From positions 124,001 to 188,000 of the forward strand of contig NZ_JAME01000003.1 in assembly GCF_000521865.1 (NCBI RefSeq): a stretch of DNA of 64,000 bases. Direction: 5' to 3'. The DNA comes from Roseivivax isoporae LMG 25204 (GTDB lineage: Bacteria > Pseudomonadota > Alphaproteobacteria > Rhodobacterales > Rhodobacteraceae). Each line of letters starts with the position of its first letter. Position 1 is the stretch's first letter. Position numbers and translations under genes: made by a program. The notes under the pieces were generated by a model. The model made no database searches. It was not told the origin of the DNA and worked only from the letters and a program-made list of their open reading frames with translations. This document shows positions 30,401-45,397 of this stretch, one piece after another.

Positions 30401-31582
30401 CTATCCGGTCGCGGCCAGAGCGCTGACCGCGCCGCTCGACTGCACGAACCGGTCGGCCGCCTCTCCCGCCAGGTGGGCGATGCGTCCCGCGCAGATCGTG
30501 CCCTCGATCGACCGGGTCCGCGCGTTCACCAGCGTGAGGTCGGCGCGGCGGCCGTAGTCGATCACGCCGCGGTCCGGCAGGCGCAGGATCTCGGCGGGCC
30601 CGGATGAAATCAGGGCCCAGGCCTGCGGCAGGGACAGCGTGCCGGCCTCGACCAGCCCGAACGCCGCGTCGGCCAGCGCCGAATAGACCCCGTTCGAAAT
30701 CAACGCGCTGCAGAGCCCGTCGCGGACGAGGTCGTGGGCGGTCCCGGACTCGTCCAGGACCTGCGCGGCCGGGACCGCGACCGGGTCGCCCACGGCGCGC
30801 GACAGGGCGGCGGCCTTGCGGCTCACGGGGCGGGCACACAGCTTGGCGCCGATCATCGCCCAGGTCTCGCGCGTCTCGCCGTCGGCGTCGTCGAGGCTGC
30901 CATAGGTCACGCCCAGCGTGTCGAAGCCCTCGGCGAGCCGGCAGAGGTGGCGCGGCACCTCGCGCCGTTCCCCGGCGGCCCGCCGCATCCGGCTGGCGAG
31001 GTCGGCGCGCGCGCCCGGCAGGGACGGCGCGGCGCCGGAGCGCACGAGCTGCGACAGCCGGTCGGTGAACAGCACGAGGTCGACACGGTGGCGGCGCACG
31101 GCGGCGAGGAGCGCGTCGCGCGTCTCGACCGTGTGGGTCTCGCAGGACAGCGAGACGCGCAGGTCGATGAGCCCGCGGGTCGCCACGAAGCCCTCGTGCG
31201 CGGCGAGGAAGGCCTGCGCGGCCTCGGGTGCGGCGGTGCCGCCCTCCCAGCTCCACCCCTGCGCGATCCAGGCGGTGGTGACGCCGTTCGCGGCGGCCTC
31301 GCGCTCGATCGCGGCGAGGAAGGTCGCCGTGTGGCGGGCACCGGCGTGCTGTGGAACCGCGTGCTGGGGGATCGGGCGTTCGGCGTGAAGGTCGACGATG
31401 CCCGGCAGGACGAGGAAGCCCGACAGGTCGACCTCGGGCAGCGGGCCCTTCGAGATGCGGCCGTCCTCGATGGCCACCGACCGCCGCTGCAACATGCCGC
31501 CACGCAGCACCGTCGCCCCGGTCAGGCGGACGCGCACGGACCGCGCACGGGGCGGCAGGACGGGACGGATCTCGGTCATCAT
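30401..31582 (-). CDS. PhnM-like amidohydrolase-fold protein lacking most metal ligands
   Basis: A 393-residue protein clearly related to PhnM, the alpha-D-ribose 1-methylphosphonate 5-triphosphate diphosphatase of the C-P lyase pathway: LSGFLVLPGIVDLH, ANGVTTAWIAQGWSWEGG, SCETHTVET and DRGVIDYGRRADLTLV all fit. But key metal positions differ. LHxD is LHAE (66-68), the GSHDD motif is GSLDD with Leu230, and the SDYY/HYP motif is SNGVYS with Asn297; only Glu148 and the first His are kept. It starts at ATG 31582 or 31579, with no strong ribosome site. No other phn gene is near. Probably not a PhnM enzyme; role unknown. Confidence 0.8.
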   Translation of the reverse strand: MMTEIRPVLPPRARSVRVRLTGATVLRGGMLQRRSVAIEDGRISKGPLPEVDLSGFLVLPGIVDLHAERPIPQHAVPQHAGARHTATFLAAIEREAAANGVTTAWIAQGWSWEGGTAAPEAAQAFLAAHEGFVATRGLIDLRVSLSCETHTVETRDALLAAVRRHRVDLVLFTDRLSQLVRSGAAPSLPGARADLASRMRRAAGERREVPRHLCRLAEGFDTLGVTYGSLDDADGETRETWAMIGAKLCARPVSRKAAALSRAVGDPVAVPAAQVLDESGTAHDLVRDGLCSALISNGVYSALADAAFGLVEAGTLSLPQAWALISSGPAEILRLPDRGVIDYGRRADLTLVNARTRSIEGTICAGRIAHLAGEAADRFVQSSGAVSALAATG

Positions 31583-31668: not shown

Positions 31669-32694
31669 TCAGCGGCGCTTCAGCGTCTCGCCGTAGCTGA
31701 TCGTCGGCGTGAGCTCGATCACCTTCTCGGCCGCGCTGGCGGGATCGGCGACGCGCGCGGCGATGATCTGCGCCGCCTTGCGTCCGATCTCGGCCCGGCA
31801 GGCGTCCATGGTGGCGAGCTTGCGCGGCAGCCCGTCGAGCAGTTCCACGCCGTTGAAGCCGGCCAGTCCGACCTGCCCGGGCACGTCCACGCCGAGGTCG
31901 AGCAGGTGCAGAAGCCCACCTGCACCGATCATGTCGTTGGAGTAGTAGAGGAAATCGAGCTCTGGCGTGCGTTCGAGGATGGTGCGCGTCATCTCGCGCC
32001 CCTTGGCCAGCGCGGAGCCGCCCGAGTAGAACTCCTGGTCGGCGACCTCGATCCCGTGCTTGGCCAGGTGTTCCGTGAAACCCTCGAAGCGTTTGCGCGC
32101 CCGGTGGTCGAGCGGCATCTTGGTCCCGAGAAAGCCGATCTGGGTGTAGCCTGCGCGGATGATGGCACGGGCCATCTCGCGTCCCGCCCGGCGGTGCGAG
32201 ATGCCCACGGCGGCGTCCACGGGGGTGCCGTCGGTGTCCATGATCTCGACCACCGGGATGCCGCTGGCCTTGAGCATGGCCCGCGAGGCGTCGGAGTGTT
32301 CGAGCCCCGCGATGATGACGCCCGAGGGCCGCCACGACAGCATCTCGTAGAGGACGCGCTCCTCCTTTTCCGGCAGGTAGTCGGTCACGCCCACGACGGG
32401 CTGCAGGTCGGTCTCCTCCAGCTCCTGGCTGATGCCGGACATGACCTCGGGAAACACCATGTTGCGCAGCGACGGGATGATGACGGCGACGAGGTTCACC
32501 CGCTGGCTCGCCAGCGCGCCCGCGATCTTGTTCGGCACGTAGCCGAGCGCCTTGGCGGCCTCGAGCACACGTTCGCGGGTGGCCTGGCTCACGTCGCCGC
32601 GGTTGCGCAGCACGCGGCTCACGGTCATTTCGGACACGCCCGACGCTTCGGAGACGTCGCGCAGGGTGAGCGGGCGGTGATCGGTCGGCGCCAA
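31669..32694 (-). CDS. LacI-family transcriptional regulator
   Basis: A 341-residue repressor: helix-turn-helix LTLRDVSEASGVSEMTVSRV at residues 9-28, the hinge helix with NKIAGALASQRVN, and a periplasmic-binding-protein-type ligand domain (VAVIIPSLRNMVFPEV onward). The ligand domain resembles the GntR-type sugar-acid regulators, but the effector is unknown. It lies between the PhnM-like and cyclodeaminase-like genes, and sequences resembling one operator occur before its own gene and in the divergent enamidase/hydroxylase promoter region, so it probably controls this locus. Confidence 0.93.
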   Translation of the reverse strand: MAPTDHRPLTLRDVSEASGVSEMTVSRVLRNRGDVSQATRERVLEAAKALGYVPNKIAGALASQRVNLVAVIIPSLRNMVFPEVMSGISQELEETDLQPVVGVTDYLPEKEERVLYEMLSWRPSGVIIAGLEHSDASRAMLKASGIPVVEIMDTDGTPVDAAVGISHRRAGREMARAIIRAGYTQIGFLGTKMPLDHRARKRFEGFTEHLAKHGIEVADQEFYSGGSALAKGREMTRTILERTPELDFLYYSNDMIGAGGLLHLLDLGVDVPGQVGLAGFNGVELLDGLPRKLATMDACRAEIGRKAAQIIAARVADPASAAEKVIELTPTISYGETLKRR

Positions 32695-32713
32695 CGCGGG
32701 TCTCCTGTCGGGA

Positions 32714-32733
32714 TGCTGTCGTATGCTAGCGCG
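32714..32733. promoter_or_regulatory. Operator-like site upstream of the LacI-family gene
   Basis: The core TCGTATGCTA (32719-32728) is identical over ten bases to the core of the candidate operator at 35121-35140. It lies about 25 bases before the regulator's start codon, where binding would give autoregulation. The outer symmetry is poorer than at the 35 kb site. Confidence 0.45.
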
Positions 32734-32772
32734 AAGCCGCGTGGCCGCACAAGCGACGGGCGCGCGGCGGGG

Positions 32773-33693
32773 TCAGGCGACCGACGCGATGTAGCCCGCG
32801 ATCATCAGGTCGAGATGCGCGCCGCCGCCGTTCTTGAAGACCGTGATGTCCCGGGGACTTGTGCGCCCCTCGGCGCCGGCGGCGAGATCGTAGAGATCGG
32901 CCCGCACGTCGGCCTCGCGGAGCGCGCCCGAGGCGAGCGGGATCATCAGCTCGCCGATGTGGTGCAGCGTGGTCTCGCGGCTGTCGACGAAGAGCCGTCC
33001 GCCCGCGATCAGCGCGTCGTCGGCCTCGCGCATGTCGGCCTTGAAGGCGCCGATCAGGTCGACATGCGTGCCGGGCCGGATCCAGTCGCCGCGGAGGATC
33101 GGCGTGCGGGTCATGGTGGCGGTCGAGACGATGTCGGCCTCGGCCGCCGCGGCGGCGAGATCCGGTGCGGGCTCGACCGGCAGGCCCTCGTCGCGGAAAG
33201 GTTCGGCGAAGGCGCGGGCCTTGTCGGCGTCGCGGGCCCAGACCGCGATGCGCTCGAGCCCCGGAAAGATCGCGCTGTAGGCGCGCACCAGAGACCGCGC
33301 CACCGTGCCTGCGCCGACGACGAGCAGCGTGCGGCTGTCGGGCCGCGCGAGCAGCTCGGCGCCCAGCACCGAATCGGCCGCGGTCTTGAACTCGGTGACG
33401 AGCCGGCTCTCGATCACCGCGGAGAGCGCTCCATCCCCGGGGGCGAAGACCAGCATCGCGCCCTGCACCGTGGGCAGGCCGCGCGCCGCGTTCCCGGCCA
33501 CGACGCTCACGGACTTCACGCCGTAGCCGAGGTCGGGAATGTAGGCCGCGCGCGACAGGAGCGTCGCGTCGGAGGGCCCGAGGAAGGTGTCGCCGATCTC
33601 GGCCCGCGGGCGGCGGTGGCCCGCGAGGATCGCGTCGCAGGCGCCGCGCCAGCTCAGCCGGTGGGCGGTGGCGTCGTGGGTGATGAGCTTCAT
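32773..33693 (-). CDS. Ornithine cyclodeaminase/mu-crystallin-family reductase
   Basis: A 306-residue NAD(P)-binding protein. The Rossmann motif is LLVVGAGTVARSLVRAY near residue 130, with the following STATMTRTPILRGDWIRPGT and HVDLIGAF typical of the family. Members include ornithine cyclodeaminase, alanine dehydrogenase and reductases of cyclic imines (pyrroline- or piperideine-2-carboxylate). The sequence does not single out ornithine. It is 60 bases downstream of the enamidase-like gene, so a cyclic imine or amino acid from ring cleavage is a plausible substrate. Confidence 0.88.
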   Translation of the reverse strand: MKLITHDATAHRLSWRGACDAILAGHRRPRAEIGDTFLGPSDATLLSRAAYIPDLGYGVKSVSVVAGNAARGLPTVQGAMLVFAPGDGALSAVIESRLVTEFKTAADSVLGAELLARPDSRTLLVVGAGTVARSLVRAYSAIFPGLERIAVWARDADKARAFAEPFRDEGLPVEPAPDLAAAAAEADIVSTATMTRTPILRGDWIRPGTHVDLIGAFKADMREADDALIAGGRLFVDSRETTLHHIGELMIPLASGALREADVRADLYDLAAGAEGRTSPRDITVFKNGGGAHLDLMIAGYIASVA

Positions 33694-33753
33694 GGCATCC
33701 AGTTGGCACCGCGAATGGCGCGCGCCGTCAAGCCCTTCCGCGGGGTTGCCGGG

Positions 33754-34941
33754 TCAGGCCAGCGCGCCGCGCACGAGTTCCGGCAGCCGCGTGGCGGGCG
33801 GCGTGTTGCGCGACCGCGCGGTGCGCGGCAGCCCGTCGATCACCGTCATGCCGACGCCCGGAAGGTTGCCGAGCGCCACGGATTCGAGCAGGTCGCGCCC
33901 CGGCGCATGCTGGGCCTGGTCCATCAGCACGAAATCCGCCGCGCGACCGACCTCGATCATCCCGCAATCGAGCTCGCGCCGCCGCGCGGTGTTGCCCGAG
34001 CCGAAACAGAACGCGATCTCGGCCGGCACGTTGCCGAGGGCGGACAGCATCGCGATCATCCGCAGGATGCCCAGGGGCTGCACGCCCGATCCCGCCGGCC
34101 CGTCGGTGCCGAGGATGATCTGGTCGAGCTTGCCCAGTTCCCGTGCGGTGTTGAGCGTGAGCAGCGCCGCGCGCTCGTTGCCGTTGTGCACGATCTCGAG
34201 CGCGGCGGTGCAGGTCTCGCAGAGACAGGTGATCTGGTCGTCGGGCAGGGCGGAATGGCCGCCGTTGATGTGCCCCACCACGTCGGTGCCGGTCTCGAGC
34301 ACCATGTCCGCGTCGATGAGGCCGGAGCCCGGGATCGACGGGCCGCCGGTGTGGATCGTCGACTGGATGCCGTGCTTGCGCGCCCACTCGACCATCTGGC
34401 GGGCGGTCTTGCCGTCCTTGACCGAGCCGAGGCCCACCTCGCCCATGAGCCGCACGCCGGCCGCCGCGAGCTCCGCGAAATCGTGCTCCTCCATCCCGTG
34501 CTCGATCACCGGGGCGCCGGCATGGACCTTGACGCCCGAGGGGCGGAAATTCTCGTACCAGCGCTGCGCGGCGATCGACATCGCCTTGAGCCCGACGATG
34601 TCCTTGGGCCGGCCCGGCATGTGCACCTCGCCGGCCGAGATCATGGTGGTGACGCCGCCGTGCAGGGTCGAATCGATCCAGTGGAGCTGCTGCTGGCGGG
34701 GCGTGTAGTCGCCCACGACCGGGTGCACGTGACTGTCGATGAGCCCCGGCGCCAGCGCCGCGCCGTGCGCGTCGATCTCGTGGGTCGCCCCCTCGATGTC
34801 GATGTCGCCCGCGCGCCCGATGGCGGTGATCCGGCCGCCCTCCGCGACCACGCAATCGGCATCGAGGATCGGCTCCTCCATCCGGCCCGACAGCATCAGG
34901 CCCACGTTGCGGATGACCAGTTTCTGCGTCGTGTCGGACAT
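33754..34941 (-). CDS. Enamidase-like amidohydrolase (6-oxo-1,4,5,6-tetrahydronicotinate hydrolase type)
   Basis: A 395-residue metal-dependent amidohydrolase very similar to Eubacterium barkeri enamidase, which opens 6-oxo-1,4,5,6-tetrahydronicotinate to 2-formylglutarate and ammonia. Shared stretches include LHGGVTTMISAG, PGRPKD, RPSGVKVHAGA and HTGGPSIPGSG. The binuclear metal ligands are in place: His71 and His73 (SHVHP), Glu168 (GEVGLG), His197, His224 (GHINGG) and Asp280 (GTDGPAG). It starts at ATG 34941 after AGGAGC and diverges from the hydroxylase operon. Activity on nicotinate itself is inferred. Confidence 0.9.
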   Translation of the reverse strand: MSDTTQKLVIRNVGLMLSGRMEEPILDADCVVAEGGRITAIGRAGDIDIEGATHEIDAHGAALAPGLIDSHVHPVVGDYTPRQQQLHWIDSTLHGGVTTMISAGEVHMPGRPKDIVGLKAMSIAAQRWYENFRPSGVKVHAGAPVIEHGMEEHDFAELAAAGVRLMGEVGLGSVKDGKTARQMVEWARKHGIQSTIHTGGPSIPGSGLIDADMVLETGTDVVGHINGGHSALPDDQITCLCETCTAALEIVHNGNERAALLTLNTARELGKLDQIILGTDGPAGSGVQPLGILRMIAMLSALGNVPAEIAFCFGSGNTARRRELDCGMIEVGRAADFVLMDQAQHAPGRDLLESVALGNLPGVGMTVIDGLPRTARSRNTPPATRLPELVRGALA

Positions 34942-34968
34942 CGGACAGCTCCTGCGGCGTTGGAAAAG

Positions 34969-34988
34969 TTTGTTTGAACGCTAACAGC
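34969..34988. promoter_or_regulatory. LacI-type operator candidate before the enamidase gene
   Basis: TGTTTGAACGCTAACA (34971-34986) is an imperfect dyad with half-sites TGTT and AACA and a CG near the centre, as in LacI-family operators. The half-site GCTAACA recurs at 35132-35138. It overlaps the proposed -10 box of the enamidase promoter. Confidence 0.5.
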
Positions 34989-35005
34989 TTCGGCGCGCCG
35001 ATCAA
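34978..35005 (-). promoter_or_regulatory. Candidate promoter for the enamidase-led leftward genes
   Basis: On the minus strand TTGATC (35000-35005) and TAGCGT (34978-34983) are 16 bases apart, and the -10 box lies inside the operator-like dyad. The predicted leader is about 30 bases with AGGAG before the ATG. Confidence 0.45.
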
Positions 35006-35095
35006 GCGCCCGGTGCGCGCGGCCTGCGCGGCGCGCGGCGCTGCCCGGGAAAGGGGCGCCGGCGGGGTGCGGACGCACCGGCCGCGCGATTGTCG

Positions 35096-35125
35096 TTGAC
35101 AGGAGCACCCGTGGCGATTTCTTAT
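35096..35125 (+). promoter_or_regulatory. Candidate promoter for the hydroxylase operon
   Basis: A perfect TTGACA at 35096-35101 is followed, 18 bases on, by TCTTAT at 35120-35125 (four of six matches). The operator-like dyad at 35121-35140 covers the -10 box and the start site, the classic layout for repression. Confidence 0.55.
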
Positions 35126-35140
35126 TCGTATGCTAACAAG
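35121..35140. promoter_or_regulatory. LacI-type operator candidate before the hydroxylase operon
   Basis: CTTATTCGTATGCTAACAAG is an imperfect 20-base palindrome with seven of ten matching pairs. Its core also occurs upstream of the LacI-family gene and its right arm upstream of the enamidase gene. This region is visibly less GC-rich than its surroundings. Confidence 0.6.
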
Positions 35141-35196
35141 TTTTTCGCAGCGGGACCGGGCCGCGCAGGCGGTGCCCGGTCGAGAGTGAGGCGGCG

Positions 35197-36042
35197 ATGC
35201 CCTATCTTGCCCCGACCCGGCTCGACGAGGCCCTGGACGCCCTGACCGAGGGCGCGGCCATCATCGCGGGCGGCACAGACTGGTATCCGGCACAGGGCAC
35301 GCGGCCCTTCGCGGGCACGCTGCTCGACGTGACCCGGATCGAGGGGATGCGCGGCATCGCACGGGCCGCGGACGACAAGGGCTGGCGGATCGGCGCGGCG
35401 ACCACCTGGACCGACGTGGCGCGCGCGGACATGCTGCCGCCCGCCTGCGACGGGCTGCGCGCTGCCGCACGCGCCGTGGGCGGCATCCAGATCCAGAACG
35501 CGGCCACCGTGGCGGGCAATCTCTGCAACGCCTCGCCGGCCGCCGACGGGGTGCCTCCACTCCTCGCGCTCGACGCCGAGGTGGAGCTGACGGGCCCGCG
35601 CGGCGCGCGCCGGCTGCCCCTCGCGGAGTTCGTGACCGGCGTCCGGCGCACCGCGCGCGCCCCGGACGAGCTGGTGACGGCGCTCGTGCTTCCCGACCCG
35701 CCCGAAGGAGCGCATGGCAGCTTCGTCAAGCTCGGGGCGCGCGCCTACCTCGTCATCTCGATCGTCATGGTGGCGGCCGTCGTGTCGGTGACCGCCGGCC
35801 GCGTGCGCGGTGCACGGATCGCCGTCGGCGCGGCCTCACCCGTCGCGGTGCGCCTGCCTGCGCTCGAGGCGGCGCTCGAGGACTGCGCGCTTGGCGAGGT
35901 CGACGCGGTCGTCGCCGCGCATGCCCCGTTTCCGGCACTGACGCCCGTGGACGACATCCGCGCCAGCGCCGCCTACCGGCACGAGGCGGCCGCCGAGGCG
36001 GTGCGCCGCGCGCTCGCCGCCGCCACGCGAGGAGACGCATGA
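35197..36042 (+). CDS. FAD-binding subunit of a xanthine-dehydrogenase-family hydroxylase
   Basis: A 281-residue medium subunit of the CoxM/NdhF type that carries FAD between the iron-sulfur clusters and the external acceptor. Visible are the FAD motifs AIIAGGTDWYP near residue 27 and TVAGNLCNASPAADGVPPLL near 108. It is the first gene of the rightward operon, and its stop overlaps the start of the large subunit gene. Together they should hydroxylate an N-heterocycle using water as oxygen source, as nicotinate dehydrogenase does at C6. Confidence 0.92.
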   Translation: MPYLAPTRLDEALDALTEGAAIIAGGTDWYPAQGTRPFAGTLLDVTRIEGMRGIARAADDKGWRIGAATTWTDVARADMLPPACDGLRAAARAVGGIQIQNAATVAGNLCNASPAADGVPPLLALDAEVELTGPRGARRLPLAEFVTGVRRTARAPDELVTALVLPDPPEGAHGSFVKLGARAYLVISIVMVAAVVSVTAGRVRGARIAVGAASPVAVRLPALEAALEDCALGEVDAVVAAHAPFPALTPVDDIRASAAYRHEAAAEAVRRALAAATRGDA

Positions 36043-38786
36043 TGGATCGCATCGCGGCCGAGACGCTGACGGCCTTCATTCTCAACGGATCCGACGTGCA
36101 GGCGGCGCCGCGGCTCGGCGAACGTCTGTCCGAGACGCTGCGCGAACGGCTGGGCGCGCGCGACGTCAAGGTCGGCTGTAACGCGGGCGATTGTGGCGCC
36201 TGCACGGTGCTGGTCGACGGCGCGCCGGTCTGCGCCTGCCTCACGCCCGCGCAGGCAGTGGCCGGGCGGCGGGTCGAGACGCTCGCTGGGCTCGTGGCGG
36301 CGGATGCCGACGCGGCCCGGCTCGCCCGCAGCTTCGAGCGGCACCAGGCGGCGCAGTGCGGCATCTGCACGCCCGGCATGATGGTGTCGGCGGTGGCGCT
36401 GCTGCGCACGGTGCCCGAGCCCTCGGAGGCGCAGGTCGCCGACGCGGTGGGCGGCGTCCTCTGCCGCTGCACGGGCTACCGCAAGATCCTCGAGGCCGTC
36501 CGCACCGCGCACGAGGACGCCGGGCCCGCGCCCGAGGCCGGCCTCGGCGTGGCCGCGCCGCGGCTCGACGGGCGGGCCAAGGTCGCAGGCACCGAGCGGT
36601 TCGGCGACGACGTGGCGCCCGCGGGGGCGCTGGTGGCGCGCGCGGTCCGCGCCCCGCACCACCGTGCGCGGTTCGCCTTCGGCGACCTCGACGGCTGGCG
36701 CGCGGCGCATCCGGGCGTCGCCTGCGTGCTGACCGCCGCGGACGTGCCGGGGCCGAACGCCTACGGAACCATCCCGGGCTTCGAGGATCAGCCGGTCTTT
36801 GCCGAGGGCGAGACCCGGTTCAAGGGCGAGGCGGTCGCCTGCGTCGTGGGCACGGCCGAGGCGGTCGCGGCGCTGGACCTCGGGCACTTCCCCGTGACGT
36901 GGGAGCCGCTGACGCCGCTCCTGGCGCTCGACGACGCGCTGGCCGAGGGGGCGGGCGACCTGCATGCGGGCCGTGCGGGCAACGTGATGTGCGGCGGGCG
37001 CGTGGCCTGCGGCGATGCGGACGCGGCGCTGGCGGCCGCGGCCGAGGTGGCCGAGATCGAGATTGCCACCAGTTTCGTCGAACACGCCTATATCGAGCCC
37101 GAGGCGGGCTATGCCGAGATGGTGGAGGACAGGCTGCACCTTCATACCTGCACGCAGGCCCCGGGCATGTTCCGCGACGGCCTCGCGCGGCTCCTCGCGC
37201 TGCCGGCGGACCGCGTGCGCGTGGTGCCGACCGCGGTGGGCGGCGGGTTCGGATCGAAGCTCGACCTGACGCTGCAGCCCATGGTGGCGCTCGGCGCGAT
37301 GCGCACGGGAAAGCCCGTGCGCATGTGCTACGAGCGCACGGAATCCATGGCGACGACCACCAAGCGGCACCCCGCGCGCATCGCCGTCCGGGTCGGCGCG
37401 GCGGCCGACGGGCGGCTGTCGGGCATGACCTTCCGCGGCGACTTCAACACCGGGGCCTATGCGAGCTGGGGGCCCACGGTGGCGAACCGGGTGCCGATCC
37501 ACGCCTCGGGGCCCTATGCGTGCCGCGACTACCGCGCCGAGAGCCGCGCCATCCACACCCATTCCGCGCCCTCGGGCGCCTTCCGCGGATTCGGCGTGCC
37601 GCAATCGGCGATCGCGCAGGAAGCGGCCTTCGACATGCTCGCCGCGCGGCTCGGGATCGACGCGCTCGACTTCCGCATCCGCAACGCGCTGCGCGACGGG
37701 ATGCCGACGGTCTGCGGGCAGGTCTTCGACAGCGGGGTCGGCATCGTCGCCTGCCTCGAGGCGCTGCGGCCGGCCTGGACCAAGGCGCTGCGCGACTGCG
37801 CGTCCTTCGACCCCGCCGGCGGGCCGCTCCGCCGGGGCGTGGGCGTCGCGGCGGGCTGGTACGGCTGCGGCAACACCTCGCTGCCGAACCCCTCGACCAT
37901 CCGGGCGGGACTCACCGCCAGGGGCCGCGTGGTGCTCCACCAGGGCGCGGTCGACATCGGGCAGGGGTCGAACACCGTGATCCCGGTGATCTTCGCCGAG
38001 GCGCTGGGCGTGCCGGTGGCGGACATCGACATTCTCGGCGCCGACACGGACCTGACGCCCGACGCGGGCAAGACCTCTGCCTCGCGCCAGACCTTCGTCA
38101 GCGGCAACGCCGCGCGCGCCGCGGGCGCGGCGCTGCGGGCCGCGATCCTGCGCACGGCCAATGCCGGGCCCGATGCCGAGATCACGCTCGGCGACGGCCA
38201 CGTGCACGTGCGCGACGGCACCCGGATCGAGGCGCTGGACCTCGCCCGGCTCGATCCCGATCCCGCGGGCTACGTCCTCGCGGCGGAAGAGACATGGGAC
38301 CCGCCCATCGCGCCGCTCGACGCGGACGGGCAGGGCATTCCCTACGCGCAGTTCGGCTACGCGGCCCACCTCGCCGAGGTGGAGGTGGACGTGGCGCTCG
38401 GCACCGTGCGGCCGCTCCGGATCGTCGCCGCCCATGACGTCGGCCGCGCGATCAACCCGCTGCTCGTCGAGGGGCAGGTCGAGGGCGGCGTGGCGCAGGG
38501 CCTCGGCATGGCGCTGATGGAGGAATTCGTGCCGGGACGGACCGAGAACCTGCACGATTACCTGATCCCCACCGCGGGCGACGTCCCGCCCGTCGAGACA
38601 CTGGTGCTGGAGGTCCCGGACCCGGTCGGGCCCTTCGGGGCCAAGGGGCTTGGCGAGCACGCGCTGATCCCGACCGCGCCCGCGATCCTGAACGCGATCC
38701 GGCACGCGACCGGCGTGACGGTGACACAGGTGCCTGCCACGCCCGCGCGGCTGCGCGCCGCGCTGAAGGAGGCTGGCCATGCCTGA
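36039..38786 (+). CDS. Fused [2Fe-2S]/molybdopterin hydroxylase large subunit (nicotinate dehydrogenase-like)
   Basis: A 915-residue protein fusing the small iron-sulfur subunit (1-160) to the molybdopterin subunit (about 170-915). Plant-type [2Fe-2S] ligands are Cys47, 52, 55 and about 65-67; the second cluster uses Cys107, 110, 142 and 144 (QCGICTPG, CRCTGY). The Mo domain has VGGGFGSK, SGAFRGFGVPQ and the catalytic Glu873 in GAKGLGEHAL. In most CO-dehydrogenase-like enzymes these are separate genes. With the reductase and enamidase neighbours, C6 hydroxylation of nicotinate or a close analogue is the best guess. Confidence 0.9.
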   Translation: MMDRIAAETLTAFILNGSDVQAAPRLGERLSETLRERLGARDVKVGCNAGDCGACTVLVDGAPVCACLTPAQAVAGRRVETLAGLVAADADAARLARSFERHQAAQCGICTPGMMVSAVALLRTVPEPSEAQVADAVGGVLCRCTGYRKILEAVRTAHEDAGPAPEAGLGVAAPRLDGRAKVAGTERFGDDVAPAGALVARAVRAPHHRARFAFGDLDGWRAAHPGVACVLTAADVPGPNAYGTIPGFEDQPVFAEGETRFKGEAVACVVGTAEAVAALDLGHFPVTWEPLTPLLALDDALAEGAGDLHAGRAGNVMCGGRVACGDADAALAAAAEVAEIEIATSFVEHAYIEPEAGYAEMVEDRLHLHTCTQAPGMFRDGLARLLALPADRVRVVPTAVGGGFGSKLDLTLQPMVALGAMRTGKPVRMCYERTESMATTTKRHPARIAVRVGAAADGRLSGMTFRGDFNTGAYASWGPTVANRVPIHASGPYACRDYRAESRAIHTHSAPSGAFRGFGVPQSAIAQEAAFDMLAARLGIDALDFRIRNALRDGMPTVCGQVFDSGVGIVACLEALRPAWTKALRDCASFDPAGGPLRRGVGVAAGWYGCGNTSLPNPSTIRAGLTARGRVVLHQGAVDIGQGSNTVIPVIFAEALGVPVADIDILGADTDLTPDAGKTSASRQTFVSGNAARAAGAALRAAILRTANAGPDAEITLGDGHVHVRDGTRIEALDLARLDPDPAGYVLAAEETWDPPIAPLDADGQGIPYAQFGYAAHLAEVEVDVALGTVRPLRIVAAHDVGRAINPLLVEGQVEGGVAQGLGMALMEEFVPGRTENLHDYLIPTAGDVPPVETLVLEVPDPVGPFGAKGLGEHALIPTAPAILNAIRHATGVTVTQVPATPARLRAALKEAGHA

Positions 38787-38816
38787 CCGGACCCGCGCCG
38801 ACCAAGGGAGGCTGAC

Positions 38817-40310
38817 ATGCCCGACGACCGCGTGACGGCGCCCCCGTCCGAGAAGATCCGCTGCGACGCCTGCCCGGTGATGTGCTACATCGCCGAGGGC
38901 CGCGCGGGCGCCTGCGACCGCTACGCCAACCACGGCGGCACGCTGGTGCGGCTCGATCCCCTGACGGTGATCGAGCGCGGCGCGCCGGCGGTCGCCTTCC
39001 TCGACACCGGGGAGAACGCGCAGGATTGGGACGGCGACGTCATCCAGGGCGCGCGGTCCTTCGTGACGGCCGTGGGCGCCGGGACGACCTATCCCGACTA
39101 CAAGCCCGCGCCCTTCATCGTCAGCCAGGAGGTGCAGGGCATCGACATGGTCACAGTGGTGACCGAGGGGATCTTTTCCTATTGCGGCGTGAAGGTGAAG
39201 ATCGACACCGACCGCCACATCGGCGAGGAGCGCAGCCCGGTCCGCGTCGACGGCGAGATGATCGGGCACGTGATGACGGCGGAATACGGCTCGAAGATGC
39301 TGTCTCTCGGCGGGGTCGAGCACCTGACCGGCGGGTCCAAGAAGGAGGGCCGCGTCACCTGCGAGGCGCTGCTCGCGCTCTGCAACCGCGAGCCGGTCGA
39401 GATGCAGATCGACGGCGGCGCGACGCTGGTGGTGCAGGCGGGCCATCCGCCGGTCATCAACGGCGCGCCGGAGCGGCTGATGCGCGTGGGCTGCGGCTCC
39501 GCGACCATCGGCATGTTCGCGCAGCAATGGCAGGGTCACGTGGACGAGGTCGTGGTGGTCGACGACCACATCACCGGGGTGCTGACCGAGCACGAGGCGG
39601 GTCGGGGGCTCGACATGACGCCGTCGGGCATCCGCGTGGCCGGACGCCGGTCGACGCCCGGGCGCTATTTCCAGGTTGCCGCGCCGGGGACCGGCTGGGG
39701 CGGGACCGACATCGAGGACCCGCTGACCATCCTCAAGCCCGCGGACCCGAAACGCGCATGGGCGGGCCTGAGGCTCCTCATGATCTCGACCACCGGCGAG
39801 CAGGCGGCCTATTACGTGCTCGACGGCGACCTCGTGCCGCAGCCGGCCGGGATGCCCCCTGCGCTGGCCGCGGTGGCCGAGCGGATCGCCGAGAACTGCG
39901 AGCCCTCGCTCTGCTCGGTGCTGTTCATGGGCGGGGCGGGAGGGTCCCTGCGCGCCGGCGTGACCGAGAACCCGGTGCGGCTGACGCGGTCGGTGAAGGA
40001 TGCGCTGACCCACGTCTCCTGCGGCGGCGCCGAGGCCTATGTCTGGCCCGGCGGCGGCATCACCTTCATGGTCGACGTGATGGACATGCCCACGAATTCC
40101 TTCGGCTCGGTGCCGACGCCCGCGCTGGTCGCGCCCATCGAGTTCACGCTGCGGCGCGAGGATTACGGCGCGCTCGGCGGCCACGTGGACCGGATCCGGC
40201 CGGTCGAGAGCGTCATCACGCCCCAGATCCGCCGCGTCCCGCCCCGCGAGGGCGAACCCGATCCGGCGGACCGCGAGAATTTCCGATGGTCGCGCGGGCG
40301 GCGCGGATGA
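38817..40310 (+). CDS. 6-hydroxynicotinate reductase-like iron-sulfur protein
   Basis: A 497-residue protein matching the 6-hydroxynicotinate reductase family, which reduces 6-hydroxynicotinate to 6-oxo-1,4,5,6-tetrahydronicotinate in anaerobic nicotinate breakdown. The N-terminus has an iron-sulfur motif C-x2-C-x3-C-x9-C (Cys16, 19, 23, 33; CDACPVMCY then GACDRY). A later stretch GCGSATIG (Thr230) loosely resembles flavin attachment sites. It starts at ATG 38817 behind AAGGGAGG and overlaps the UPF0280 gene. Finding this reductive enzyme in what looks like an aerobic alphaproteobacterium is notable. Confidence 0.85.
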   Translation: MPDDRVTAPPSEKIRCDACPVMCYIAEGRAGACDRYANHGGTLVRLDPLTVIERGAPAVAFLDTGENAQDWDGDVIQGARSFVTAVGAGTTYPDYKPAPFIVSQEVQGIDMVTVVTEGIFSYCGVKVKIDTDRHIGEERSPVRVDGEMIGHVMTAEYGSKMLSLGGVEHLTGGSKKEGRVTCEALLALCNREPVEMQIDGGATLVVQAGHPPVINGAPERLMRVGCGSATIGMFAQQWQGHVDEVVVVDDHITGVLTEHEAGRGLDMTPSGIRVAGRRSTPGRYFQVAAPGTGWGGTDIEDPLTILKPADPKRAWAGLRLLMISTTGEQAAYYVLDGDLVPQPAGMPPALAAVAERIAENCEPSLCSVLFMGGAGGSLRAGVTENPVRLTRSVKDALTHVSCGGAEAYVWPGGGITFMVDVMDMPTNSFGSVPTPALVAPIEFTLRREDYGALGGHVDRIRPVESVITPQIRRVPPREGEPDPADRENFRWSRGRRG

Positions 40311-41152
40311 GGCCAGCCGCGGCGCTTCTCCCGGGGGACCGGCTGCACCTCCAGCACGGGCCGATCGACCTCGTCATCGGGGCCGAGGGCGACCGGCGGG
40401 CGGCCTTTGCCGCCGCGCGGGCGCGGTTCGACACGGTGCTCGAGGAACTGGTGGCGGAGCTGCCGCAGCTGCGCCGCCCGGTGCCCTCGCCCACGCCCGA
40501 GGGAGAGACCGCGCGGCGCATGCACGCGGCCTGCCTGCCGCACGCGGACGGCATCACGACGCCCATGGCCGCGGTCGCCGGGGCGGTGGCCGAGACGGTG
40601 CTGGCGGCGATGGTCGCGGCGGCCCCCCTGAGGCGCGCCTATGTCAACAACGGCGGCGACATCGCGCTGCACATCGCGCAGGGCGCGGAATACGCGGCGG
40701 GCATCGCCGCGCCCGACGGCACGTCGCTCGGGACCGCGCGGATCGCCGCGGGGGACCCGGTGCGCGGCATCGCCACGAGCGGGCAGGGCGGGCGGAGCCT
40801 GAGCCTCGGGATCGCGGACGCGGTCACGGTGCTCGCGGCCTCGGCCGCCGCCGCCGACGTGGCGGCCACGCGCATCGCCAATGCCGTCGACCTCGCGGGC
40901 CATCCTGCGATCCGCCGCGCGCCCGCCGCGACGCTGCGGGACGACAGCGACCTCGGGCAGGTGGCGGTCGTCACCGCCGTAGGCTTGCTCGACCCCGAGG
41001 ACATCGCCGCGGCGCTCGACCGCGGCGCCCGCGCCGCCGACGCGATGCGCCGCGCGGGCCTGATCGCCGCGGCCGCGCTGTTCCTGCGGGGATCGACCCG
41101 CAGCACCGGCGCGCTCGCCCCGCAACGCCTAAGGAGACCGGAACATGCCTGA
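40307..41152 (+). CDS. UPF0280-family, ApbE-like protein
   Basis: A 281-residue protein of UPF0280, related to ApbE flavin transferases. The signature YVNNGGDIALHI near residue 120 matches the NxGGDI segment of ApbE, and GIATSGQGGRSLSLGIADAV resembles its later substrate loop. ATG 40307 overlaps the reductase stop; an in-frame ATG at 40286 is possible. The position inside the operon suggests it matures a flavoprotein, most likely the reductase upstream; this is inference. Confidence 0.85.
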   Translation: MRPAAALLPGDRLHLQHGPIDLVIGAEGDRRAAFAAARARFDTVLEELVAELPQLRRPVPSPTPEGETARRMHAACLPHADGITTPMAAVAGAVAETVLAAMVAAAPLRRAYVNNGGDIALHIAQGAEYAAGIAAPDGTSLGTARIAAGDPVRGIATSGQGGRSLSLGIADAVTVLAASAAAADVAATRIANAVDLAGHPAIRRAPAATLRDDSDLGQVAVVTAVGLLDPEDIAAALDRGARAADAMRRAGLIAAAALFLRGSTRSTGALAPQRLRRPEHA

Positions 41153-41729
41153 CGTGCAGATCCGCAAGATCGCCACGCTCATCGAGGAGGTGCGCCACGA
41201 ATTCGGGCCCCCGCCCGGGACGCCGCTCCTGCGGGGCGCGATCCTCTGCGCCATCGCCAATCCCTATGCCGGCGCGTACGCGCCCGACATCGCGCCCTTC
41301 ATGGAGGACCTGAAGCCGCTCGGCCTCGACATGGCGAACCGGCTGCTCGCGGCGCTGGGCGGCGACCCGGCGCGGATCGAGGGCTACGGCAAGGGGGCGA
41401 TCGTGGGCGGCGCGGGCGAGCTCGAGCACGGCGCGCTCTGGCACGTGCCCGGCGGCTACGCCATGCGCGAGGCGCTGGGCGGAGCCATGGCCATCGTGCC
41501 CTCGACCAAGAAGGTGGGGGGCGTCGGCGCGCGGCTCGACGTGCCGGTGACGCATGTGAACGCCTCCTACGTGCGCTCGCATTTCGACGCGATGGAGGTC
41601 GGGCTGCCGGACGGACCCAGGGCCGACGAGATCGTCGTCGTCCTGGTCATGACCACCGGCGCGCGGGTGCATGCGCGCGTGGGCGGACTGGCGGCGGCCG
41701 ACATCGAGGGAAAGGACGGACTGAGATGA
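41145..41729 (+). CDS. PF06684 (amino acid synthesis family, DUF1185) protein, copy 1
   Basis: A 194-residue protein of PF06684. Family marks are NPYAGAYAPDIAPFMEDL, YGKGAIVGGAGELEHGALWH, PSTKKVGGVGARLDVP and VRSHFDAMEV. The family's fold is chorismate-mutase/YjgF-like, and its function is unknown; the name comes from genome context. The gene overlaps the UPF0280 gene by eight bases and the second copy by four, so a heteromeric pair is likely. A step after ring opening is a guess. Confidence 0.88.
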   Translation: MPDVQIRKIATLIEEVRHEFGPPPGTPLLRGAILCAIANPYAGAYAPDIAPFMEDLKPLGLDMANRLLAALGGDPARIEGYGKGAIVGGAGELEHGALWHVPGGYAMREALGGAMAIVPSTKKVGGVGARLDVPVTHVNASYVRSHFDAMEVGLPDGPRADEIVVVLVMTTGARVHARVGGLAAADIEGKDGLR

Positions 41730-42310
41730 GCGCGGACATCCGGAAGATCGCGGTCTGGGTCGAGGAAACCCACCGCGAGGCGGGGCGCGCCATCGCGCCC
41801 GCGACCCGCAAGGCGGTGGCGGCGGCGGTGATCGCGAACCCCTTCGCCGGGCGCTACGAGGAGGACCTCGCGCCGCTCATGGAGATCGGCGCGGAACTGG
41901 GCGGGCTTCTCGGCGCGCGCTGCGTGGCGGCGCTCGGCATCGCGCCCGGGCAGGCGGAGAGCTACGGCAAGGCGGCGATGGTGGGCGAGAACGGCGAGCT
42001 CGAGCACGCGGCGGCGATCCTGCATCCGAAGCTCGGCGCGCCGCTCCGCGCCGCGGTCGAGAAGGGCGCGGCGCTGGTGCCCTCGTCGAAGAAGATGGGC
42101 GGGCCGGGGCAGGTGCTGGACGTGCCGCTCGGGCACAAGGACGCGGCCTATGTGCGCTCGCATTTCGACGGGATCGAGATCCGGCTGAACGACGCGCCGC
42201 GGGCGGACGAGATCCTCGTGGCGGTCGCGGTCACCGATTCCGGGCGGCCCCTGCCGCGTGTGGGCGGGCTCACCGCGGCGGAGGCCAAGGGCGAGGACGG
42301 CCTGCGCTAG
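41726..42310 (+). CDS. PF06684 (amino acid synthesis family, DUF1185) protein, copy 2
   Basis: A 194-residue paralogue of the preceding gene, equal in length and aligned end to end: NPFAGRYEEDLAPLMEIG, YGKAAMVGENGELEHAAAIL, PSSKKMGGPGQVLDVP and VRSHFDGIEI. Copies 1 and 2 differ most before residue 30 and in the region around 55-65, so they diverged long ago rather than by recent duplication. It ends the six-gene operon; a hairpin follows 11 bases later. Confidence 0.88.
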   Translation: MSADIRKIAVWVEETHREAGRAIAPATRKAVAAAVIANPFAGRYEEDLAPLMEIGAELGGLLGARCVAALGIAPGQAESYGKAAMVGENGELEHAAAILHPKLGAPLRAAVEKGAALVPSSKKMGGPGQVLDVPLGHKDAAYVRSHFDGIEIRLNDAPRADEILVAVAVTDSGRPLPRVGGLTAAEAKGEDGLR

Positions 42311-42391: not shown

Positions 42392-45300
42392 TCAGCCGAG
42401 GGCCGCGTCGCAGCGCGCGCAGACGGCGGGATGCCGGTGGGTGCCCACGTCGGGCAGGATCTTCCAGCAGCGCTCGCATTTCCCGCCATCGGCGCGTTCG
42501 AACACCACGCCGATGCCGGGGCTCTCGGCGAGGCGGAAGCCGTCGGAGGGCACCGGGTCGCCCGAGAGCGCGATGCCCGAGGTGATGCAGATGTCGTCGA
42601 AGGGCACGTCCCGCAGCGCCGCGAGGATCTCGGTGTCCTCCACATGCACCACCGGGGCCGCCTCGAGCGAGGCGCCGATCGCCTTGTCGGTGCGCTGCAC
42701 TTCGAGCGCCGCGGTCACCACGCGCCGGGCCTGGCGCACGCGCGCCCACTTGGCGGCGAGCGCGTCGTCGCGCCATCCGGCCGGGGTCTCGGGCATGTCC
42801 TGCAGGTGGACGGAGCTGTCCTCGCCCGGGAACCGCTCGAGCCAGACCTCCTCCATGGTGAAGACGAGCACCGGGGCGAGCCAGGTGGTCAGCCGGTGGA
42901 ACAGGAGGTCCATCACCGTGCGCGCCGCGCGCCGGCGCGCGGTGTCGCCGTCGCAGTAGAGCGCGTCCTTGCGGATGTCGAAATAGTAGGCCGAGAGGTC
43001 GATGGTGCAGAAGTCGAAGAGCGTGCGGAACACGCCCTGGAAGTCGAAGCTGCGGTAGCCCTCGCGCACCCGGACGTCGAGTTCGGCGAGCCGGTGCAGC
43101 ACCCAGCGCTCGAGCTCGGGCATCTCGGCCGGCGCGACGCGGTCGGCTTCGGAGAAGTGCGACACCGCGCCCAGCAGGAAGCGCATGGTGTTCCTGAGCC
43201 GCCGGTAGCTGTCGGCGGTGCCCTTCAGGATCTCGGGGCCGATGCGCTGGTCGGCGGTGTAGTCCGCCTGCGCCACCCAGAGCCGCAGGATGTCGGCGCC
43301 GTACTGCGTGACCACCTCGTCGGGCACCACCGTGTTGCCGAGCGACTTCGACATCTTGTTGCCCTTGGCGTCGAGCGTGAAGCCGTGGGTCACCACGTTG
43401 CGGTAGGGTGCCCGGCCGATCGTGCCGCAGGCCTGCAGCATGGAGGAATGGAACCAGCCGCGGTGCTGGTCGGTCCCCTCCATGTAGACGTCGGCGATGC
43501 CGTCCTCGGTGCCGTCCGCGCGGTCGCGCAGCACGAAGGCGTGGGTCGAGCCGGAATCGAACCACACGTCGAGGATGTCGAACACCTGGTCCCACTGGGC
43601 CGGGTCGTGGTCGTCGCCGAGGAAGCGTTCCTTGGCACCGGGCTTGTACCAGGCATCCGCGCCCTCGGCCTCGAACGCCTCGAGGATGCGGGCGTTCACG
43701 GCCGGATCGCGCAGCAGGAAATCGGGGTCCGTGGGCTTGCCGCCGGCCCGGGTGAAGCAGGTGAGCGGCACGCCCCAGGCGCGCTGGCGCGACAGCACCC
43801 AGTCGGGCCGCGCCGCGATCATCGAGTGCAGGCGGTTGCGCCCGGAGCGCGGCGTCCAGGTCACGAGCTCGTCGATCGAGCGCAGCGCGCGTTCGCGGAT
43901 CGTGGTGCCGTAGGTGTCCTGCCCGTCGCCCACGGGGCGGTCGATGGCGGCGAACCATTGCGGCGTGTTGCGGTAGATGACCGGCGCCTTCGAGCGCCAG
44001 GAATGCGGATAGGAATGCTTGATCTTGCCGCGCGCCAGGAGGCCGCCGACGGCGGCGAGCTTGTCGATGACGGCCTTGTTGGCGTCGCCTTCCTTGCCGT
44101 TCTCCCGGAGGATGCGCGCGCCGCCGAAGAAGGGCAGGTCGGACCGGAAGCTGCCGTCGTCCATGACGTTGTAGGTGATGACCTGCTCGAGCATGCCGAG
44201 ACCGCGGTAGAGGTCGTATTCCTCCATCCCGTGCGAGGGCGCGCAATGCACGAAGCCCGTGCCCTCGTCGTCGGTCACGAAGTCGGCGGCGCGGAAGTCG
44301 CGCGGGCCGTCCCATTCGCCGCCCGAGCCCTCGGCCCCGGCGAGCGGGTGGGCGAGCGTCATGGCGCCGAGCTGCTCGGGGGTCACGTCGCGCAGGCGCC
44401 GCCACTGCCCGTCCGACAGGCGTGCCTTGGCGAAGGTCTGCGCGGCCAGCCGGTCGGCGAGGATGAAGCGGTCGCCGGGCGCGGCCCAGCATTCCTCGGG
44501 CGTCTCGGTCACCTCGTAGAGCCCGTAGGCGAAGTCGGCGCCGAACACGACGGCCTTGTTCGACGGGATGGTCCAGGGCGTGGTGGTCCAGATCACCACG
44601 TTCGCGCCGACGAAGGCCTCGCGCGCCTCGGCCTTGGCGCGCACGACCGCCTCGCGCTCGTCGTCGGTCGCCTCCTCGTCCGAGACGTCGAGCTCGGGCA
44701 TCGAGAAGTCGGTGACGCGGAACTTCACCCAGATGGTGAAGCTCTCCTTGTCGTGGTACTCGACCTCGGCCTCGGCGAGCGCGGTCTTCTCGACCGGGGA
44801 CCACATCACCGGCTTCGAGCCCTGGTAGAGCACGCCCGACATCAGGAACTTCTGGAAGTCCTCGGCGATGATGCGCTCGGCGCGGTAATCCATCGTCAGG
44901 TAAGGCGCGGCCCAGTTGCCGGTGATGCCGAGCCGCTTGAACTCGTCGCGCTGGATGTCGATCCAGCCCTCGGCGAACTTCCGGCATTCCTGGCGGAAAT
45001 CGACGACGTCGACCTCGTCCTTGTCGAGCCCCTTGGCGCGGTACTGCTCTTCGATCTTCCACTCGATGGGCAGGCCGTGGCAGTCCCAGCCGGGGATGTA
45101 GCGCGCGTCGTGCCCCATCATCTGGTGGCTGCGCACGATCATGTCCTTGATCGTCTTGTTCAGCGCGTGACCGATATGCAGGTGGCCGTTGGCGTAGGGC
45201 GGGCCGTCATGCAGGGTGAAGGGCGGCCGCCCGGGCTTTTCCCTCAGGCGGTCGTAGACGCCGATCCGTTCCCACCTCTCGAGCCAGCCGGGCTCGCGCT

Positions 45301-45397
45301 TGGGCAGGCCCGCCCGCATGGGAAAGTCGGTCCGGGGAAGGTTCAGCGTGTCCTTGTAGTCGGGCACGGTACGGGTGTCGGTCGTGTCGGCGCACAT
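42392..45397 (-). CDS. ileS: Isoleucyl-tRNA synthetase
   Basis: IleRS charges tRNA-Ile and edits mischarged valine. The 1001-residue class I synthetase has the HIGH motif in GHLHIGHALNKTI, the editing domain (VIWTTTPWTIPSNKAVVFG), the KMSKS loop in GNKMSKSLGN and the C-terminal zinc ribbon CERCWKILPDVG then CARCDAALG, which marks the common bacterial type. The ATG at 45397 lies at the right edge of a 463-base gene-free stretch. Convergent with the PF06684 pair. Confidence 0.97.
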   Translation of the reverse strand: MCADTTDTRTVPDYKDTLNLPRTDFPMRAGLPKREPGWLERWERIGVYDRLREKPGRPPFTLHDGPPYANGHLHIGHALNKTIKDMIVRSHQMMGHDARYIPGWDCHGLPIEWKIEEQYRAKGLDKDEVDVVDFRQECRKFAEGWIDIQRDEFKRLGITGNWAAPYLTMDYRAERIIAEDFQKFLMSGVLYQGSKPVMWSPVEKTALAEAEVEYHDKESFTIWVKFRVTDFSMPELDVSDEEATDDEREAVVRAKAEAREAFVGANVVIWTTTPWTIPSNKAVVFGADFAYGLYEVTETPEECWAAPGDRFILADRLAAQTFAKARLSDGQWRRLRDVTPEQLGAMTLAHPLAGAEGSGGEWDGPRDFRAADFVTDDEGTGFVHCAPSHGMEEYDLYRGLGMLEQVITYNVMDDGSFRSDLPFFGGARILRENGKEGDANKAVIDKLAAVGGLLARGKIKHSYPHSWRSKAPVIYRNTPQWFAAIDRPVGDGQDTYGTTIRERALRSIDELVTWTPRSGRNRLHSMIAARPDWVLSRQRAWGVPLTCFTRAGGKPTDPDFLLRDPAVNARILEAFEAEGADAWYKPGAKERFLGDDHDPAQWDQVFDILDVWFDSGSTHAFVLRDRADGTEDGIADVYMEGTDQHRGWFHSSMLQACGTIGRAPYRNVVTHGFTLDAKGNKMSKSLGNTVVPDEVVTQYGADILRLWVAQADYTADQRIGPEILKGTADSYRRLRNTMRFLLGAVSHFSEADRVAPAEMPELERWVLHRLAELDVRVREGYRSFDFQGVFRTLFDFCTIDLSAYYFDIRKDALYCDGDTARRRAARTVMDLLFHRLTTWLAPVLVFTMEEVWLERFPGEDSSVHLQDMPETPAGWRDDALAAKWARVRQARRVVTAALEVQRTDKAIGASLEAAPVVHVEDTEILAALRDVPFDDICITSGIALSGDPVPSDGFRLAESPGIGVVFERADGGKCERCWKILPDVGTHRHPAVCARCDAALG

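Follow-up and report, generated by a model that had tools for sequence, protein, structure and literature searches.

The closest described relatives of the locus considered here are gene clusters for the reductive catabolism of nicotinate. PMC9304392 gives an overview of the route, in which 1,4,5,6-tetrahydro-6-oxonicotinate (THON) is formed and enamidase then yields 2-formylglutarate; PMC7356986 covers its last step. Such a cluster occurs in Eubacterium barkeri. Another, described from Azorhizobium, Bradyrhizobium, R. palustris and strain SG-6C, comprises a homologue of 6-hydroxynicotinate reductase (Hnr) along with the genes for steps one to three, and it also holds a putative ABC transporter and a pair of conserved unknown proteins (PMC3511419). 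We analysed a stretch of 64,000 nucleotides from Roseivivax isoporae LMG 25204 (contig NZ_JAME01000003.1, positions 124,001 to 188,000, hereafter the window), which belongs to an assembly of 4.9 Mb in 203 contigs. Open reading frames (ORFs) and family searches showed that the window contains a block of nine divergently arranged genes, all with open frames (Table 1), as the initial annotation had proposed in describing a divergent LacI-type locus with hydroxylase, Hnr-like and enamidase-like genes. The block probably encodes the upper reductive catabolic route for nicotinate or a pyridine carboxylate very close to it, a reading drawn from homology. It is an apparently intact further representative of an already published pathway type and is ordinary in its group; what the comparison with other genomes adds is the UPF0280 protein as a constant partner of Hnr, and two ring openers that appear exchangeable.

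In a PDB sequence search the amidohydrolase of the block (Ena) matched the solved E. barkeri enamidase 2VUN over its full length with E = 1.3e-105, and the next chains, one hydantoinase included, reached only about 5e-6; the protein therefore groups with enamidase, and the grouping with hydantoinase-like enzymes that had been named initially as a refutation did not occur. Ena is identical to the E. barkeri ORF at 171 of 386 aligned positions (44%). Residues H71, H73, E168, H197, H224 and D280 align with E. barkeri H67, H69, E164, H193, H220 and D276, which we take to be the binuclear metal ligands, so that the six presumed ligand positions pointed out earlier are all kept. Hnr shares 43% identity with the product of the gene in the hnr position of E. 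barkeri, and this resemblance of Hnr and Ena to proteins of the E. barkeri cluster upholds the upper route (hydroxylase, Hnr, enamidase) suggested at the outset; the use of a reductive route by aerobes has a precedent (PMC3511419). Six cysteines of Hnr (C16, C19, C23, C33, C226 and C361) are invariant in a 37-row alignment (A2). Pfam and NCBIfam gave nothing for Hnr at E <= 0.001, and a PDB sequence search nothing meaningful; a fold search of the PDB with its predicted structure (pLDDT 82.5, pTM 0.78) was likewise negative at E <= 0.001, and the modelled fold may be an uncharacterised one. The molybdenum (Mo) subunit has nine cysteines within its first 170 residues, C47, C52, C55, C67, C107, C110, C142 and C144 being assigned by spacing to two 2Fe-2S clusters, and it carries AFRGFG and GLGE motifs. 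The hydroxylase matched many molybdenum hydroxylases of the PDB, including E. barkeri nicotinate dehydrogenase 3HRD (chains A, B and D), which was not top-ranked. On this basis the hydroxylase, with flavin adenine dinucleotide (FAD), iron-sulfur (Fe-S) and Mo centres, would make 6-hydroxynicotinate; Hnr, as an iron-sulfur enzyme, would reduce it to THON; and Ena would open the THON ring to give 2-formylglutarate and ammonia. By analogy with Azorhizobium, the lower pathway may run via glutarate.

The E. barkeri cluster (L038) resembles the block in having an FAD/Fe-S/Mo hydroxylase, Hnr, UPF0280 directly after hnr, Ena, and PF06684, which there directly follows ena. UPF0280 and PF06684 had initially been taken as hints of a different lower pathway or substrate; since E. 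barkeri's own cluster holds both, neither signals either, and their use as markers of another substrate was ruled out. The window differs from E. barkeri in the fusion of the Fe-S and Mo subunits and in its two PF06684 genes, and its Hnr lacks an extra N-terminal ferredoxin-like domain that E. barkeri Hnr has. Scanning with the enamidase of E. barkeri returned 11 loci: E. barkeri, nine others at 60-97% identity and a remote one at 25% (L048). The enamidase lies with hydroxylase and Hnr in all ten loci L038-L047, and nine of these also have both UPF0280 and PF06684; the contig of the tenth (L042) ends in the region of hnr, whose frame stops after 261 residues, 217 bp short of that end. None of hydroxylase, Hnr, UPF0280 and PF06684 was found in L048. 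Seven presumed lower-pathway ORFs of E. barkeri, and its transporter, had no match at E <= 1e-5 in the 64-kb window, the rest of the genome not having been searched. The absence of the later E. barkeri genes noted initially thus stands for the window, and for this reason only the upper route is claimed.

The block was searched for in other genomes. Of the 385 genomes searched from the window's class, 68 have Hnr; a 69th hit, G167, was a 35-residue, 20-bit fragment and is not counted. In the family, Hnr is present in 79 of 198 sampled genomes, which bears out the ordinary status of the block in the group. It is also on 26 plasmid records; its nearest named relatives, at 82% identity, are on Sulfitobacter plasmids, and Sulfitobacter pontiacus (L033) carries a similar block. 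Neighbourhoods were fetched for 58 of the 67 other class genomes with Hnr and, together with 5 plasmid and 20 family loci, make up the 83 other Hnr loci compared below. All 68 class genomes with Hnr have UPF0280 (65 above cut-off, three in fragments), and the 317 class genomes without Hnr gave six weak matches, none above cut-off. The UPF0280 protein of the window scores 334.4 bits against NF003322 (cut-off 290), and its model has the fold of the flavin transferase ApbE. Because of this predicted fold and the strict co-occurrence with Hnr in the sample, UPF0280 is probably an Hnr maturase; it would mature Hnr perhaps by installing a covalent flavin. Hnr of E. barkeri carries a covalent flavin. 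UPF0280, a family of debated function, thus has one clear partner in these genomes, and its role becomes testable.

The ring opener, by comparison with Hnr and UPF0280, is of two kinds. Of the 68 genomes with Hnr, 30 have a homologue of Ena with at least 65% identity, and the remaining 38 have a homologue of HyuB (best match at least 64%; a partial gene in G064). Every Hnr genome has exactly one close opener homologue, with no case of both or of neither. Remoter HyuB-like paralogues (42-45%) occur in nine of the 30 Ena genomes, including the window's own (G000:C15), and remoter enamidase-like paralogues (35-38%) in three of the 38 Hyu genomes (G064, G104 and G289). The window itself belongs to the Ena branch and has no HyuAB, and no HyuA or HyuB match was found in the 11 loci of the enamidase scan. 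The opener label was placed on a 69-row Hnr tree, five short Hnr rows (L040, L042, L045, L081 and L082) having been dropped beforehand; class rows were labelled by genome, plasmid and anaerobe rows by locus. The label changes nine times, at least seven of them on well-supported branches. Within one family (f104) a Mo-hydroxylase-like gene is followed by Ena in one genome (L071) and a gene of the same kind by HyuB and HyuA in another (L077), the distance from the opener genes to the Hnr genes differing between the two. The best NCBIfam relatives of HyuA and HyuB from Neorhizobium are the caprolactamase subunits (482.5 and 309.2 bits, below the cut-offs of 1000); caprolactamase, CapAB, the nearest curated relative of HyuAB from these sister clusters, is an ATP-dependent lactam hydrolase (PMC8453981). 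The simplest reading is a non-orthologous replacement at the THON step, under which two unrelated enzymes that open lactams would substitute for each other, in what looks like a clean example. No description of the UPF0280-Hnr or Ena/HyuAB patterns was found in the accessible parts of the open papers searched.

Close openers were also seen among the 317 class genomes without detected Hnr: HyuB with at least 60% identity in four genomes of one family (G114, G217, G307 and G383, 62-63%), and a close enamidase in one (G082, locus L203, 74%). A few further HyuB matches in genomes without Hnr were at 51-58%.

PF06684 occurs in 59 of the 68 Hnr genomes, that is, in all 30 with Ena and in 29 of the 38 with Hyu. 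The class scan also gave 16 remoter enamidase-like hits (35-41%). In seven of the 11 such loci that were fetched (L195-L201, 37-41%), PF06684 adjoins the amidohydrolase in the absence of Hnr, which suggests that PF06684 is tied to ring opening; its product would act at or just after that step. One of the seven, L200, also has a Mo hydroxylase. A twelfth locus, L203 with the close Ena homologue of G082, is without PF06684. Copy b matched 2QTP, the structure of its solved relative SPO0826 from Ruegeria pomeroyi DSS-3, with E = 1.2e-99; it is 52% identical to the E. barkeri gene after ena, and closer to it than copy a. Copy b is commoner with Ena; in raw counts the 69 rows comprised 34 with both, 29 with neither and 3 + 3 discordant. 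After tree correction seven independent pairs were left, two or three in the same direction, none opposite and four or five without difference, which is not significant, and the proposal that copy b tracks Ena was not retained. SPO0826 lies near branched-chain amino-acid-type ABC transporter genes, a partial basis of its amino-acid label (PMC2954203). Transporter queries matched five of five plasmid and 29 of 58 class Hnr loci; the transporter type behind the label thus also flanks Hnr clusters, and the role of PF06684 is now testable.

Two features of the locus weigh against the proposed route. The hydroxylase is fused, and its segments reach only 32-44% identity with the E. barkeri enzyme. 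Queries from related clusters for a transporter, MarR, ferredoxin-NADP reductase and a Rieske protein match nothing in the window, so that they yield no candidate for uptake or for an electron donor to Hnr. The same chemistry could serve another substrate, a different pyridine carboxylate or N-heterocycle being hydroxylated to a product that Hnr and Ena handle. The hydroxylase is indeed the block enzyme that diverges most from E. barkeri, and the entry step may vary, since some related clusters have a NicB-like enzyme (L035, L037 and L104) or a Rieske oxygenase; Hnr and Ena, however, are of the E. barkeri types, and a similar block has been published for degraders of nicotinate and 6-chloronicotinate (PMC3511419), which makes another substrate quite improbable. 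The Azorhizobium/Bradyrhizobiaceae cluster shares the Hnr homologue and the first-three-step genes with the window and also has its two conserved unknown proteins (PMC3511419); it differs by its putative nicotinate ABC transporter, which has no match beside the block. Two substrate-binding-protein queries and the permease query matched nothing in the window; in the close relatives L158-L161 the transporter is present. A related question is whether HyuAB substitutes for Ena at all, or whether Ena clusters and HyuAB clusters have different substrates and share only hydroxylation and reduction. HyuAB is unrelated to Ena, and PF06684 copy b was found in one of 31 fetched loci from genomes without Ena vs 23 of 27 with Ena, as would suit different compounds. 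That no Hnr genome had two close openers or none, that the opener changed at least seven times on supported branches, that Ena and HyuBA adjoin the same kind of Mo-hydroxylase gene within one family, and that HyuAB has caprolactamase subunits as best curated relatives, though below cut-off, all speak for replacement, and we consider different compounds unlikely.

The nature of UPF0280 is less settled than its association with Hnr, and several results count against a flavin transferase. TM-scores from Foldseek between the UPF0280 model and ApbE chains were modest (0.32-0.53 by query length), and COG2122 homology apparently stops short of the ApbE flavin-binding region (PMC5764234). The catalytic residue of V. 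cholerae ApbE is His257 and the target motif D-x-x-[ST]-G-A-[ST] (PMC12052999). In the region that corresponds to the ApbE base, no column of the UPF0280 alignment had His in at least 10 of the 21 sequences, and the motif was present in none of 69 Hnr sequences; UPF0280 and Hnr of the window differ in both respects from ApbE, the FAD:protein flavin mononucleotide transferase, and its partners, and an ApbE-type motif in Hnr combined with a catalytic His in UPF0280 was rejected. Chances are about even that UPF0280 is instead a maturase of another kind, or an Hnr subunit, involved for example in sulfur or Fe-S delivery, a role of the kind suggested for COG2122 together with DUF39 in homocysteine synthesis. 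Besides the missing His and motif, the six invariant cysteines of Hnr favour this, as does the fitness of COG2122 mutants, which tracks that of DUF39 (r = 0.98); a persulfide role has been proposed (PMC5764234). COG2122 of Desulfovibrio and methanogens (DVU1097, 2O34) has the same fold and belongs to the same sequence family as the window protein; it is linked to DUF39 and homocysteine synthesis (PMC5764234), whereas the window protein is linked to Hnr. Against a role other than flavin transfer stand the ApbE fold of the model, the E. barkeri UPF0280 protein, which clears the Pfam ApbE cut-off of 25.6 bits (29.5) though the window protein does not (14.5), and the lack of any sequence relation between Hnr and DUF39. 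The last point comes from profile and sequence comparisons, one of them with 30 of 32 DUF39 sequences (PF01837; two short ones were left out); hhalign gave a probability of 0.1-0.3% and shuffled controls topped the hmmsearch list. Hnr as a DUF39 relative, considered for the common link to COG2122, thus found no support at the sequence and profile level. A twofold proposal, in which UPF0280 is a dedicated cytosolic installer of the Hnr flavin (ApbE-like, with altered catalytic residues and an attachment site as yet unknown) and Ena was repeatedly exchanged for the ATP-driven HyuAB within the class, is put forward tentatively and, taken whole, is doubtful.

Regulation of the block was considered in the same way. 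The LacI-type protein (best NCBIfam NF052440, 286.7 bits, below the cut-off of 400) had no match at E <= 1e-10 in the 83 other Hnr loci and is peculiar to the window's locus, which has LacI where related loci commonly have MarR (four of five plasmid, 36 of 58 class and 16 of 20 family loci). Because of this absence elsewhere, and since the cyclodeaminase-like gene next to it is frequent in the family without an adjoining block, both might be an unrelated neighbour, LacI exerting no control over the block. LacI lies on Ena's strand, downstream of Ena, and GCTAACA occurs just twice in the window, both times in the gap between Ena and the FAD gene, within imperfect LacI-like palindromes, so that we regard an unrelated neighbour as the less likely case, if not a far-fetched one. 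The pattern was chosen after inspection of the region, and two sites anywhere in the window were reached in 20 of 100 shuffles, which is not rare by chance; it is their clustering in the gap, and not their number, that is suggestive. The adjacent LacI regulator would probably repress the divergent promoters; no consensus sigma-70 promoter was found in 34700-35400.

Table 1. Features of the block and its flank, in window coordinates
Feature	Position	Strand	Evidence or remark
LacI/GntR-type transcriptional regulator	31669..32694	-	TTG start; PF00356 + PF00532; likely local regulator
Ornithine cyclodeaminase / delta1-piperideine-2-carboxylate reductase-like protein	32773..33693	-	PF02423; probably not a pathway gene
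Enamidase (Ena), presumed hydrolytic opener of THON	33754..34941	-	2VUN match, ligand positions
Candidate LacI operator 1 TGTTTGAACGCTAACA	34971..34986	+	Adjoins Ena start; contains GCTAACA
Candidate LacI operator 2 TATTCGTATGCTAACA	35123..35138	+	Upstream of FAD gene; contains GCTAACA
FAD subunit of molybdenum hydroxylase	35197..36042	+	PF00941, PF03450
Fused [2Fe-2S] + molybdopterin subunit, presumed nicotinate hydroxylase	36039..38786	+	PF01799, PF02738, PF20256
6-hydroxynicotinate reductase-like protein (Hnr)	38817..40310	+	Identity to E. barkeri hnr-position protein
UPF0280/COG2122, constant Hnr neighbour, presumed Hnr maturase	40307..41152	+	NF003322; ApbE fold (model)
PF06684 protein, copy a	41145..41729	+	PF06684, 230.5 bits (gathering cut-off 27)
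PF06684 protein, copy b	41726..42310	+	PF06684, 245.6 bits (gathering cut-off 27)
Isoleucyl-tRNA synthetase (IleRS)	42392-45397	-	Beyond the block; name from sequence reading, without search

The cyclodeaminase-like protein has NF004793 as its best NCBIfam relative (253.8 bits of 322). Homologues at 45-68% identity were found in eight of eight genus-mates and in 13 of 16 other family genomes searched, and seven of the eight searched family genomes lacking Hnr have one. Five genus-mate neighbourhoods of this gene contained no other block gene, save a 27% LacI-family match in L191, and a match (35-38%) was found in three of the 83 Hnr loci. Since it is widespread in the family whether or not the block is present, it is probably not a pathway gene.

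Neighbouring genes on the plus strand overlap, with the sole exception of a 30-bp gap before Hnr, and for this reason they probably form one operon. The GC content of the plus-strand block is 74.5% vs 70% on either side, and third-position GC is 0.90-0.96 in the block genes and 0.91-0.96 in three neighbours; base composition permits no conclusion on horizontal gain.

Downstream of LacI, a PhnM-like amidohydrolase is encoded at 30404-31579 on the minus strand (NF011987, 201.9 bits, cut-off 253). Fpr, a possible electron donor, is encoded near Hnr in five of five plasmid, three of 58 class and four of 20 family loci. A gene for a VanA-type Rieske oxygenase is found close to the block in two of five plasmid and 12 of 58 class loci (L033, L036, L159-L161 and others), and in Sulfitobacter mediterraneus a gene for a RibD_C-type reductase stands just after the block (L034, 15538-16065).

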